The notes under the pieces were generated by a model, which was not told where the DNA came from, did no database searches, and worked only from the letters and a program-made list of their open reading frames with translations. The translations under genes were made by a program, and so were the position numbers. A DNA stretch of 64,000 nt from Gammaproteobacteria bacterium (GTDB lineage: Bacteria; Pseudomonadota; Gammaproteobacteria; Pseudomonadales; Pseudohongiellaceae): NCBI GenBank assembly GCA_017853205.1, contig JAFMKB010000001.1, positions 62,001 through 126,000 on the forward strand. The letters are read 5' to 3'. Shown here one piece after another: positions 57,347 through 62,292 of the stretch. Every line of letters starts with the position of its first letter. The stretch's first letter is position 1.

Positions 57347-57766
57347 CTATTTGACCAATCGTAGAGCAGGCTTTTTCTGACTAGAACTCGCTTGGGTGCC
57401 GCTCGCGCTGCTGTCTGACGGCGCTGGCGGCTCCGGCTCTGGAAGTATTTCAGCCTTAAACATCATCCCTTCACCGTTCTCCCGCGCGTAAATTCCCAAC
57501 ATCGCTCCAATGGGGACGAGCACGCGCCGGGAGACTCCGGCGAAGCGCCCATTAAAGCTAACATAGTGATCGTCGATGATGAGATCTTGAACGGCGACAG
57601 GCGACACATTGAGAACGATCTGACCGTCTTTTACGTGTTCTTGGGGCACTTCGACGCCGTCTATTAGCGCGTCAACGACTACATGCGGGGTGCAGCCGTT
57701 GTCTAGAATCCACTCATAAAGGGCTCTGACGAGGTAGGGCCGACTAGAAGTCATTAGTGTCGACAT
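57347..57766 (-). CDS. sspB: ClpXP protease adaptor SspB
   Basis: Delivers ssrA-tagged proteins from stalled ribosomes to ClpXP. The 139-aa chain has the substrate-binding domain (SSRPYLVRALYEWILDNG, then VLNVSPVAVQDL and ISFNGRF-like VSFNGRFAGVSR) followed by a flexible linker rich in Pro, Ser and Glu and the ClpX-docking tail ALRLVK at the very end. It follows sspA by 41 bp in the usual order. A second Met four codons in is an alternative start. Confidence 0.95.
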   Translation of the reverse strand: MSTLMTSSRPYLVRALYEWILDNGCTPHVVVDALIDGVEVPQEHVKDGQIVLNVSPVAVQDLIIDDHYVSFNGRFAGVSRRVLVPIGAMLGIYARENGEGMMFKAEILPEPEPPAPSDSSASGTQASSSQKKPALRLVK

Positions 57767-57807: not shown

Positions 57808-58440
57808 TTAGACCATCTCTTTTTCTTGCTCGGAAAGACTCATGATCACAGATTCACGCTCAAAGAGGCGATCGCGGTAATCAAGAAGTGGTTTTACTCC
57901 CTTCGTCTTAGGTAGCTCAATTCCCATTACAGGGAGACGCCATAAAATCGGCATTACACAGCAGTCGACGATAGTGAACTCGTCACTCATAAAATAGGGC
58001 TTTTCGCCAAAAATCGCGGCAATAGACACGAGGCTGTCGCGTAATTCTTTGCGTGCCTTCTCAAGCTGCGCCGGCGTCCCGTCTTTAGCCATGAGTTTAT
58101 CGACTAGCGGGCACCAATCTTGCTTTATGCGATAGATCCAAAGGCGGCTCATCGCGCGCGCCACCGGATAGACAGGGAACAGAGGAGGATGAGGGAAACG
58201 CTCATCTAGATATTCCATCATGATGTCCGCTTCGTAAAGCACCAAATCCCTGTCAACTAGCGTGGGTAGCGAGTTGTAAGGATTGAGGCTAGCGAGATCC
58301 TCGGGCTTTTTTTCTGGATCTACATCGATAGTCTCAACGGTCACACCCTTTTCGGCCAACACGATGCGAACGCGGTGGCTGTATTGGCTAGTGCCATCCG
58401 AGTAGAAAGTCATCGACGATCGTTTAGCAACCACACCCAT
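57808..58440 (-). CDS. sspA: Stringent starvation protein A
   Basis: A 210-aa RNA-polymerase-associated protein with a glutathione-transferase fold and no transferase activity. Family segments are FYSDGTSQYSHRVRIVLAEKGV and the NPYNSLPTLVDRDLVLYEADIMMEYLDERFPHPPL stretch. In E. coli it changes promoter use during starvation. The frame opens at a TTG upstream, but the ATG at 58440 has AGGAA 5-6 bp before it and gives the usual MGVV start. It follows the bc1 operon by 52 bp and precedes sspB, the order of Pseudomonas. Confidence 0.95.
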   Translation of the reverse strand: MGVVAKRSSMTFYSDGTSQYSHRVRIVLAEKGVTVETIDVDPEKKPEDLASLNPYNSLPTLVDRDLVLYEADIMMEYLDERFPHPPLFPVYPVARAMSRLWIYRIKQDWCPLVDKLMAKDGTPAQLEKARKELRDSLVSIAAIFGEKPYFMSDEFTIVDCCVMPILWRLPVMGIELPKTKGVKPLLDYRDRLFERESVIMSLSEQEKEMV

Positions 58441-58492
58441 AGTATTTCCTCTCAATCCTTAGATAGTAGACCTTAACTGCAATGCAGTCAGA

Positions 58493-60529
58493 TCAATGAT
58501 AGTCCTTGCTAAACTCTCGGCTCATGAAGAACACGAGGATGTAGAGGAGCCCGAGAAACGCTAAGACCCAGACACCAATCGACTGACGCTTCGCACGGAT
58601 AGGCTCGCCGATGTAGTAGAGAAAGTTCACGAGATCTGCAACCGTTTCATCGAATTCTGCCGGTGATAGGCTACCCGTCCCCTCTACGTGTGTGAGGTCG
58701 CACTGAGTGGGATCATCCGTTCCGTGGTCGTCACAGACCACGTCACCCTGTAGATTATGCAGAGCATTGGGCATGCCGACGTTCGCAAAAAGCTTGTTAT
58801 TGGCCCCCAGCGGACGCGACGGGTCGTTGTAGAACGACTTCATGTAAGTGTATAGCCAATCGGGGGAGCGCACGCGCCCGATCAGCGTAAGATCTGGAGG
58901 TGCCGCACCAAACCATACCTTAGAGTCTTCGTCCGCCATCGCATTGGTCATTAGATCGCCGATAGACGATCCATCGAATATCATATTCGCCTCAACCAAT
59001 TCAGCGTCGAGCTCTAAATCTTCGGCTGTGCGCGCATAGCGCGCGTAGCCAAGCTCATGACAACCCGCACAATAGTTCATGTAGGTACCCCAGCCGCGCT
59101 GAAGTGATCCCTTGTCCTCAAAACTTGTTTCGACGTGCATGAGATCAACATTGCTGGCTTCAGAGGCATGAGCGGTATTGGTGAGCATCAACGGGATGAC
59201 TACCATCGCCGCGATAAGCAATAACGCACCGATAAACTGAGGGATGCTGATAAAGCGACCAGTGACGCGCTCAGGCGGTGTTGCTGTCTCTTCAGCACGT
59301 GTATACCAAGGCATCGCGAAGAAATACCCGAAATACACAAGCGTCATAACCTGAGCAAGGAGTGTTTTGGCTGGACTGACTGATTGCGTACCAAGCACAC
59401 CAAGAATCAGGAACGCGACAACGAAAAGTAGAAGCGCGATGCGGCTAAACTTACCTTTGTAACGAATTGATCTGACCGGACTCTTGTCGAGCCAAGGCAG
59501 TACAAAGAGAATCGCAATCGCACCGAACATGACCAGCATTCCCCAGAATTTCGCATCGATACCGAACAGCGGGTAGGTAACCGCACGCAGCATCGAGTAG
59601 AACGGGGTGTAATACCAAACCGGCGGCACGTGCTCTGGCGTTTTTAGTGAATCTGCTTCTTGGAAGTTGGCGACTTCTAGGAAATACCCACCCATCTCTG
59701 GCGCGAAAAATACGATCGCACAGAAGACAAATAAGAAGACGATTATGCCCCCGAGATCATGATACATCGTGTAGTAAGGATGGAAAGGAACACCGTCGAG
59801 AGGCACACCATTTGCATCTTTATTCTTCTTGATCTCGACGCCGTCAGGGTTGTTCGAGCCCACCTCATGAAGCGCAAGAATATGTAACACCACCAAGGCG
59901 ATTAACACGATTGGAAGTGCGACCACGTGAAGAGCGAAGAAGCGATTCAGTGTAGCGCCCGAAATTAAGTAATCACCGCGCACCCAAACTAATAGGTCTT
60001 CACCAATGACGGGAATCGCGCCGGCCAGCGATACGATAACGTTAGCGCCCCAGTATGACATTTGGCCCCAAGGCAACACATAGCCCAGGAATCCTTCCAT
60101 CATCAGGACGAGGTAGATCGCCATACCGAAGACCCAGATCAACTCGCGAGGCTTTTGGTACGAGCCATACATCATGCCGCGGAACATATGGAGATAAACC
60201 ACAGCAAAGAAGGCTGACGCACCGGTTGAGTGCATGTAACGCAGAATCCAGCCATAGTCGACATCACGCATGATGTATTCGACGGAAGCAAATGCCGCTT
60301 CGGCACTCGCGGTATAATTCATCGTCAACCAGATGCCTGTAAGCAACTGGATAACCAATACAACCATCGACAATACGCCGAAGAAGTACCAAAAGTTGAA
60401 GTTTTTAGGAGCGTAGTATTCGCTCATGTGTTTCTTCCAAGCTGACACTATTGGCAGCCTGTCGTCTGTCCAGTCGCGGAGACCGACTAATGCGCCCATT
60501 ACGAGGCCGGGCTTGTTTGAATCGCTCAT
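58493..60529 (-). CDS. Fused cytochrome b / cytochrome c1 of the bc1 complex (FbcH-type)
   Basis: A single 678-aa protein holding both redox subunits of the quinol:cytochrome c oxidoreductase. Residues 1-425 are cytochrome b with haem ligands His100/His201 and His114/His216 and the quinol-site motif PVWY (303-306) where many have PEWY. Residues 431-454 form a signal-like helix ending TAHA/S, a good signal peptidase site. From about 460 the chain is cytochrome c1: haem motif CAGCH (487-491), axial Met586 in ANVGMPNAL, and a C-terminal anchor (652-668). The layout matches Bradyrhizobium FbcH, which is cleaved into two proteins. Pseudomonas has two separate genes at this spot. It overlaps petA by 4 bp. 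Confidence 0.95.
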   Translation of the reverse strand: MSDSNKPGLVMGALVGLRDWTDDRLPIVSAWKKHMSEYYAPKNFNFWYFFGVLSMVVLVIQLLTGIWLTMNYTASAEAAFASVEYIMRDVDYGWILRYMHSTGASAFFAVVYLHMFRGMMYGSYQKPRELIWVFGMAIYLVLMMEGFLGYVLPWGQMSYWGANVIVSLAGAIPVIGEDLLVWVRGDYLISGATLNRFFALHVVALPIVLIALVVLHILALHEVGSNNPDGVEIKKNKDANGVPLDGVPFHPYYTMYHDLGGIIVFLFVFCAIVFFAPEMGGYFLEVANFQEADSLKTPEHVPPVWYYTPFYSMLRAVTYPLFGIDAKFWGMLVMFGAIAILFVLPWLDKSPVRSIRYKGKFSRIALLLFVVAFLILGVLGTQSVSPAKTLLAQVMTLVYFGYFFAMPWYTRAEETATPPERVTGRFISIPQFIGALLLIAAMVVIPLMLTNTAHASEASNVDLMHVETSFEDKGSLQRGWGTYMNYCAGCHELGYARYARTAEDLELDAELVEANMIFDGSSIGDLMTNAMADEDSKVWFGAAPPDLTLIGRVRSPDWLYTYMKSFYNDPSRPLGANNKLFANVGMPNALHNLQGDVVCDDHGTDDPTQCDLTHVEGTGSLSPAEFDETVADLVNFLYYIGEPIRAKRQSIGVWVLAFLGLLYILVFFMSREFSKDYH

Positions 60530-61128
60530 GCTGCTGTCTCCTCGTCAATACCTATGATCAACACGTTGTCGTCCTCAAATGAATGCGGCGGCACTTCCAT
60601 GTTGCGCGATGAAGGTGACCCGCTGTAAACACGTCCAGCGAGGTCGAATCGCGAACCGTGACAGGGGCAGAAGAATCCGCCACGCCACTCCTCGTCGAAA
60701 GGCTGCGCCTTGAGTTCGATATGCGGAGTGGGTGAGCAAAAAAGGTGTGGGCATAGGCCGACCAAAACCATTATATCGGGGCGGCGCGCACGGTATTCAT
60801 TTTGCGCGTAAGTGGGCTGTTCTGGCTCTTGCGAATCTGGATCGGTTAGGCGATCGGGGTCTTCGTTGAGTACAGCAAGCAATGCCTCGCTGCGCTTAAC
60901 AACAAAAATAGGACGCCCACGCCATGCAGGGATTGGCCCCAGCATCTCACCGTCTTGCAGACGACTAATATCTATGCGAACAGGAGCTCCTGCCGCACGC
61001 GCTTTGGCGCTTGGGTTCCACGACCCTACGAAAGGCACCGCAGCACCTACTACACCAGCGGCACCAACCGCTGTCGTCGAACCAACTAAGAACCGTCTAC
61101 GGCCAACATTCGCACTGTTGTCAGTCAC
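60526..61128 (-). CDS. petA: Rieske iron-sulfur subunit of the bc1 complex
   Basis: A 200-aa [2Fe-2S] protein that carries electrons from quinol to cytochrome c1. A twin-arginine signal/anchor (RRRFLVGSTTAVGAAG) is followed by a flexible hinge rich in Ala and the Rieske domain. The second cluster box is standard (CPCHGSRFD, Cys154/Cys156/His157). The first reads CPHLFC (Cys126, His128, Cys131) instead of the usual CTHLGC, keeping ligands and disulfide but changing two neighbours. The stop overlaps the start of the fused b/c1 gene (ATGA), so the complex is made from one transcript. Confidence 0.95.
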   Translation of the reverse strand: MTDNSANVGRRRFLVGSTTAVGAAGVVGAAVPFVGSWNPSAKARAAGAPVRIDISRLQDGEMLGPIPAWRGRPIFVVKRSEALLAVLNEDPDRLTDPDSQEPEQPTYAQNEYRARRPDIMVLVGLCPHLFCSPTPHIELKAQPFDEEWRGGFFCPCHGSRFDLAGRVYSGSPSSRNMEVPPHSFEDDNVLIIGIDEETAA

Positions 61129-61453: not shown

Positions 61454-61846
61454 TTAGCGCTTAGAGAATTGCGGCTTCTTGCGCGCCTTACGCAAACCAA
61501 CCTTCTTACGCTCAACTTCACGCGCGTCACGAGTGACGAAACCCGCCTTACGCAGCGTAGGCTTGAGCTCTTGGTCGTACTCCATCAGTGCGCGAGTAAT
61601 TCCATGCCGAATAGCGCCGGCTTGCCCGAAGCTACCACCACCGCGAACTGTGACATTTACGTCGAATTTCTCGATCATTTCCACGAGCTCTAGAGGCTGG
61701 CGCACGATCATGCGAGCCACTTCCCGACCAAAATAGCCATCGAGAGGACGCTTGTTCACCGTGATAGCACCGCTACCATTCTTGAGGTATACCCTCGCAG
61801 TCGAGGTTTTACGACGACCAGTTCCGTAGTATTGCGTAGTAGACAT
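61454..61846 (-). CDS. rpsI: 30S ribosomal protein S9
   Basis: A 130-aa small-subunit protein whose C-terminal tail reaches the P-site tRNA anticodon loop. The start [20 protein letters not shown], the [19 protein letters not shown] block and the terminal QFSKR are all standard. It follows rplM by 17 bp in the universal L13-S9 operon. Confidence 0.99.
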
Positions 61847-61863: not shown

Positions 61864-62292
61864 TTAAAATTTAACGGCTTGCGGCTGCTGGGCACCGTGG
61901 GGATGCTCGCTACCGGCGTAGACTTTTAATTTTTTGAACATGGCACGACCTAGTGCATTCTTGGGCAGCATACCTTTCACTGCGTTTTGAATAACACGCT
62001 CAGGCGCACGTTCGATGAGCTTTTCAAAAGAGATCGATTTCAGGCCGCCGGGGTATCCCGAGTGCGCATGGTAGATCTTGTCTTTTGCTTTATTACCCGT
62101 AACCTTCACTTTTTCACAGTTGACAACAACGACGAAGTCGCCGGTATCGATATGCGAAGTGAACTCTGGCTTGTGCTTTCCACGCAGGCGATGCGCTATC
62201 TCAGCCGCCATTCTGCCTAGTGTTTGGCCTTCCGCATCGACCAGGAGCCATGCCTGATCAACTTCATTTGTTTTTGCGCTGTAAGTCTTCAT
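61864..62292 (-). CDS. rplM: 50S ribosomal protein L13
   Basis: A 142-aa early-assembly protein of the large subunit. It contains [38 protein letters not shown] and [19 protein letters not shown]. First gene of the L13-S9 operon, with its own promoter at 62328-62356. The leader is short; no structured autoregulatory site was obvious. Confidence 0.99.

Follow-up and report, generated by a model that had tools for sequence, protein, structure and literature searches.

The window (the whole stretch of 64,000 nucleotides analysed here) appears to encode a bc1 complex that is ordinary in itself and unusual in the form of its genes, with cytochrome b and cytochrome c1 joined in one uninterrupted frame of 678 codons that begins with ATG and has no internal stop (Table 1). 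Taking the account as a whole, we consider it quite likely that this gene specifies a joint b/c1 precursor of an ordinary proteobacterial bc1 complex, which would be translated straight through and cut after A455. The earlier note had described a stop-free passage from a complete cytochrome b through a signal-like helix ending TAHA/S into a complete cytochrome c1, and the reading frame and Pfam searches bear this out, with matches above the curated cut-offs to Cytochrome_B (residues 36–224), Cytochrom_B_C (291–400) and Cytochrom_C1 (472–673); the residues at the end of the helix are indeed T-A-H-A455/S456. The haem ligands that it named for the two parts are all invariant among 41 aligned fused proteins (H100, H114, H201 and H216 in b; C487, C490, H491 and, as the presumed axial ligand, M586 in c1), and so is the linker proline P446. 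The locus thus has a cytochrome b with four haem histidines, a c1 with CxxCH and methionine, and an adjoining Rieske gene, as in a bc1 complex, and has both subunits complete in one frame with a signal-type helix and a predicted peptidase site between them, as in the FbcH type. We also note a pair of cysteines in c1, C599 and C610 (window 58700–58735), of which C610 is invariant and C599 is present in at least 90% of the 41 fused proteins; perhaps they form a disulfide.

Table 1. The fused gene, its parts and its neighbours, in positions of the window.
Feature	Positions	Strand	Basis
sspB, conserved downstream neighbour	57347..57766	-	PF04386
sspA, conserved downstream neighbour	57808..58455	-	SspA is the top-scoring model at 292 bits (cut-off 314, not reached)
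petB-petC fusion, precursor of cytochromes b and c1, 678 aa	58493..60529	-	ORF; Pfam; 20/20 full-length genus homologues fused
c1 C-terminal membrane anchor, residues 645-675	58505..58597	-	model helix; hydrophobicity
Predicted mature cytochrome c1, residues 456-678, 223 aa	58496..59164	-	Pfam; residue 463 is aligned to residue 3 of 8smr_J
Met586, presumed axial haem c ligand	58772..58774	-	invariant in 41 fused proteins
Haem c motif CAGCH, residues 487-491	59057..59071	-	C487, C490 and H491 invariant
Predicted signal peptidase I site, A453-H454-A455/S456	59165..59173	-	site test on 114 fused junctions; low model pLDDT (41) at 451-460
Signal-type helix, residues 429-450, ninth hydrophobic helix, presumably of c1 signal peptide origin	59180..59245	-	model helix; visual alignment to the signal peptides of split c1 genes
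Cytochrome b portion, residues 1-426, with 8 predicted membrane helices and haem ligands His 100/114/201/216	59252..60529	-	Pfam; invariant columns; model helices; 8smr_I match
petA, Rieske iron-sulfur subunit, Tat-type N-terminus	60526..61128	-	TIGR01416 and PF10399 above cut-off; 4-base overlap with the ATG of the fused gene
Conserved upstream neighbour, presumably rpsI	61454..61846	-	ORF; conserved gene order; name from the earlier note
Conserved upstream neighbour, presumably rplM	61864..62292	-	ORF; conserved gene order

An AlphaFold model based on a 41-row alignment is of moderate quality (mean pLDDT 65.2, pTM 0.63, 148 residues below 50) and was used for helix positions alone. It has eight long membrane helices up to residue 412, the linker helix at 429–450 (block pLDDT 85), a poorly predicted segment at 451–460 (41), and the C-terminal c1 helix at 645–675. 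The best solved matches in a fold search are the cytochrome b (68% identity) and c1 (42%) of P. aeruginosa, which are separate chains in their complex; b (8smr_I) matches residues 19–424 and c1 (8smr_J) residues 463–674, so that the linker helix is left out.

The fused form is widespread within the order. We surveyed 195 genomes of the order (185 with a match), 184 of the class (154) and 199 of the phylum (177), and parsed 264 loci for gene state, 127 being fused, 136 split and one useless; once 26 loci whose domain hits were incomplete (25 of them split and 1 fused) and repeated sequences had been removed, 224 rows were left, comprising 119 fused, 101 split and 4 split with a helix remaining on b. 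In a set of 80 loci, 37 were fused and 43 split. At the level of families, defined by whole-genome family codes and parsed in 41 of 45 cases (f19, f22, f25 and f33 were left out), 14 are fused (f1, f4, f9, f10, f11, f13, f16, f23, f24, f40, f41, f42, f44 and f45), 26 are split, and one, f14, is split with a b that carries a helix like that of the fused linkers. Fused and plain split loci do not occur together in any family, except that the f14 row L124 has an assembly gap at the junction. The closest named relatives are metagenome bins and an uncultured Pseudohongiella (76% identity), with LSUCC0112 at 71%, so that the window probably belongs to a Pseudohongiellaceae-like genus. Among the named loci, Zhongshania, Gilvimarinus, Haliea, Seongchinamella and Pseudomaricurvus are examples of the fused state (Zhongshania antarctica and Gilvimarinus chinensis among them), and Halomonas, Pokkaliibacter, Thiobacillus and Burkholderia of the split one.

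Outside the order, several class-level rows with matches spanning 8–678 in long frames with one stop were candidates for further fusions, and on parsing all 27 of the best-scoring loci proved to be split, although in many of them b and c1 share a frame around one stop. Beyond the class, fusion is seen at five loci of one alphaproteobacterial genus (g310 of family f217, which we take to hold Bradyrhizobium), the six other loci being split. An apparent triple fusion with the Rieske subunit in an 899-codon frame (L017) was rejected; its first 230 codons have no PetA match and are therefore an out-of-frame extension.

Among loci from this order that are 6 kb or longer, the gene order rplM-rpsI-petA-b-c1-sspA-sspB is complete at 27 of the 28 fused and at 40 of the 45 split ones. 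The identical order in the split relatives agrees with the proposal in the earlier note that two adjacent genes were joined within a Pseudomonas-type neighbourhood. That a fusion of adjacent genes took place therefore stands, but its placement 'here' was too local, as the fusion is older than the genus and is found in 14 of the 41 parsed families of the order.

The split members of the order suggest what the joining would have involved. Their cytochrome b ends mostly in ...PxRVTG-stop (exactly so in 24 of 50), and c1 starts at or just past this stop, in the +2 frame in 49 of 50 loci, so that the stop had to be lost and the frame shifted for a fusion to form. The proposed event is an in-frame joining of the cytochrome b end and the signal peptide of c1, in an ancestor that predates the genus. 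By-eye alignment shows that the split c1 signal peptides end alike (for example VPLTAMA), and the linker helix is therefore most simply the old c1 signal peptide. The junctions are of different types in what we call group A (the window's family and two relatives), where b continues from its VTG end as VTGR, and group B (Halieaceae, Cellvibrionaceae, Spongiibacteraceae, Porticoccaceae and others), where it is largely VTM-DGG. Both ends occur in split relatives, VTMK or VTMR being found in 6 of the 50 split rows of the order (from f18, f27, f29, f30 and f31); on the tree of b and c1 together these families are placed close to group B.

The trees conflict as to the number of fusions, which is probably two or three. 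With b and c1 combined there are four changes of state, three of them forced by starred branches; with b alone there are three, and f44 joins group A (92); with c1 alone there are eight, and group A is weak (34). The combined topology test left out 25 of 129 rows, and the two single-gene trees 7 rows. RpoB and RpoC, in a quick tree and in a second tree without the long-branch rows L319, L304 and L320 and without L302 (which lacks RpoB), give five to seven changes, depending on the rows and on how f14 is counted. All of the fused families could also go back to one fusion, placed at the root of a large portion of the order and lost several times afterwards, and one clade of all fused rows is not rejected on b and c1 (p-AU 0.352; 0.509 for groups A and B without f44); the helix end P-L-K-A-V-G-A is moreover alike in both groups, although like ends also occur in the split c1 signal peptides and may therefore be ancestral. 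Against this, RpoB and RpoC reject groups A and B as one clade (p-AU 0.027), with group B alone not rejected (p 0.135), and place f44 among split families (SH-aLRT 98). We regard the single fusion as doubtful, and read groups A and B as separate events on the basis of their different junctions and the RpoB and RpoC result; f44 is perhaps a third. We note also that the split families f12, f27, f30 and f31 are placed differently relative to f9, f13 and f14 by the b, c1 and RpoB plus RpoC trees, a pattern that may point to exchanged bc1 genes or to further fusion and fission.

It seems that the fusion has also been undone at least once, in f14 (apparently the BD1-7 clade). Four of its five rows (L029, L091, L093 and L101) have 41 residues after PxRV on b, holding a hydrophobic helix like that of the fused linkers, whereas the other split rows have 0–5 residues there (97 rows). 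The f14 c1 has a start and a signal peptide of its own, and in three of the five rows it shares the frame of b, unlike the +2 frame of the other split rows. Its b lies inside group B (98–99), and its c1 groups with that of the fused family f13 and also with those of the split families f30, f31 and f27 (82–96), so that replacement of c1 is possible, which counts against simple fission. The chances seem to us about even that, within the order, b and c1 were joined at least twice and probably three times, at separate in-frame junctions each with a site, and were parted again at least once, in f14, the old helix staying on b and c1 gaining a new signal peptide. If this is true, such subunit fusion would be frequent and reversible, because the peptidase makes it invisible at the protein level.

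For the working of the window's gene we favour a joint precursor for the two subunits. On the predicted helices, cytochrome b would insert as eight membrane helices with its C-terminus in the cytoplasm; with the end of b inside, the former c1 signal peptide would serve as a ninth helix, an internal signal-anchor that carries c1 out to the periplasm. Signal peptidase I would then cut after A455, the Ccm system would attach haem c, and c1 would be held by its C-terminal anchor in a finished complex with separate b and c1; the genome has two Peptidase_S26 genes and one CcmF-type gene.

The junctions themselves are consistent with cutting. The helix proline, used as the anchor, is present in 113 of 114 fused junctions (f217 excluded), and a script found a −3/−1 site in 112 of the 114, a raw count over related rows without a chance control. 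In 86 of 87 junctions the site lies at a fixed distance from the proline (residues +4 and +6, of the P-L-K-A-V-G-A type). In the window's group it lies 3–4 residues further away in 26 of 26, by a test that is loose for this class, and strictly as [AV]xA in 25. By eye, the two junctions that the script missed have a shifted site (L032, the odd one of the 87) and I-G-A (L118, which is unanchored). What appears to speak most for continued cleavage is that the register has moved in the window's genus, yet a predicted site is still present.

The continuous frame and the well-predicted helix would also suit a protein that is never cut, the ninth helix staying in the membrane and tethering c1 to b in the working complex; the split-again f14 retains such a helix on b without c1, and a bc1 complex can therefore apparently hold it. 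This reading is improbable given that every fused junction examined has a peptidase site, including those with a moved register, that the genome encodes signal peptidases, and that the FbcH precursor, the precedent, is reportedly cut.

A separate c1 might also arise from an internal start within the fused frame, as the tested region contains at least one in-frame ATG in 91 of 114 fused genes. We scored an own c1 start as an ATG (no other codon) with a ribosome-site-like motif of at least 4 bases, 35–75 residues before CxxCH; by this measure 80 of 105 split rows have one, as against 5 of 114 fused rows. The window is without the motif, and its ATGs in residues 406–456 are M406, M442 and M448 alone, the last two within the helix, which makes internal initiation very unlikely here. 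With the start signal mostly gone from the fused genes, c1 is very probably made from the joint precursor, and the kept site together with the lost start signal lends indirect support to the suggestion in the earlier note that the product is still cut.

The fusion recurs throughout the window's genus. In a search of 38 genomes, 25 of them from the genus, 23 of the 25 match the fused protein, and 20 of these copies are full length, in one frame and without a stop; another is broken over two contigs with its large piece fused (G023), two are fragments (G005 and G010), and two of the 25 genus genomes searched gave no match to the fused protein (G001 and G008). Two further members from the order survey (G098 and G148) are both fused. 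Uncorrected pN/pS among 25 genus-group sequences, with pS near saturation, is 0.28–0.30 at the junction, 0.11 in cytochrome b and 0.22–0.24 in c1. The junction is under purifying selection and evolves as coding sequence; that its ratio is somewhat above those of both domains would be expected of a linker no less than of a signal peptide. There is no hidden stop between b and c1 in any of the 20 full-length genus copies, and the split relatives that share the flanking gene order belong to other families and are not near-identical copies. Although the window comes from a draft of 109 contigs, a sequencing or assembly error masking a stop and a start is thus hardly conceivable, since all 20 full-length genus copies, and 14 families, are fused in frame and the junction is under selection. 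Neither a second c1 nor a second match to the fused protein was found in the window's genome, and the fused gene is therefore its only bc1.

A single gene whose product is cut into b and c1 is already known in principle from Bradyrhizobium, where the FbcH precursor is reportedly cleaved. The window's gene resembles FbcH in that b and c1 share a single gene, with an internal signal helix and a site of the peptidase type between them, as seen in the five f217 loci. It differs in its gammaproteobacterial host, in a junction whose sequence appears unrelated, and in the spacing of the helix-D haem histidines (residues 201–216, window 59882–59929), which is H-x14-H here and 13 in the alphaproteobacterial fused loci; cutting, moreover, is reported for FbcH and predicted for the window's protein. 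Since the 27 parsed class-level loci from beyond the order are split without exception and the junctions differ, the alphaproteobacterial fusion may well have a separate origin, the f217 rows lying outside our trees. Pseudomonas and the split members of the order share the neighbourhood and the same subunits, but in P. aeruginosa (PA4430 and PA4429), as in those members, there are two genes, with c1 in another frame and with its own start. The fused genes of group B share with the window the single frame, the internal helix and the kept site, and differ in their VTM-DGG-type junction in place of VTGR and, in some, by two extra hydrophobic stretches before the signal helix.

One passage of a text on Rhizobiales (PMC8555084) uses 'cytochrome b/c1 (K00410)', which is the KEGG name. 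Among the matches listed from the open-access literature we found no paper on a b/c1 fusion in gammaproteobacteria, and no description of its spread, variety of junctions or apparent reversal there. With the present loci, a curiosity that textbooks connect with Bradyrhizobium is extended to a large marine group of gammaproteobacteria, and these loci provide a natural series of split genes, fused genes, fused genes with extra helices, and genes split again with a left-over helix. Such a series lets one ask what benefit joint synthesis of b and c1 may bring and whether the usual peptidase cuts the internal signal helix; for annotation, one gene here stands for two subunits.

Two further observations concern the forms that lie around the plain fusion. 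A class of 22 of the 119 fused rows, from several families (including L026, L030, L096, L102, L108, L111 and L132), has about 60–70 extra residues that follow helix 8 of b and precede the signal helix, seemingly forming two additional membrane helices. In Betaproteobacteria b and c1 lie mostly in the same frame with a single stop between them, one change short of fusion (L192, L200, L206–L210, L216–L232 and others); all nine rows kept have the two genes in one frame, and none of the betaproteobacterial loci parsed is fused.
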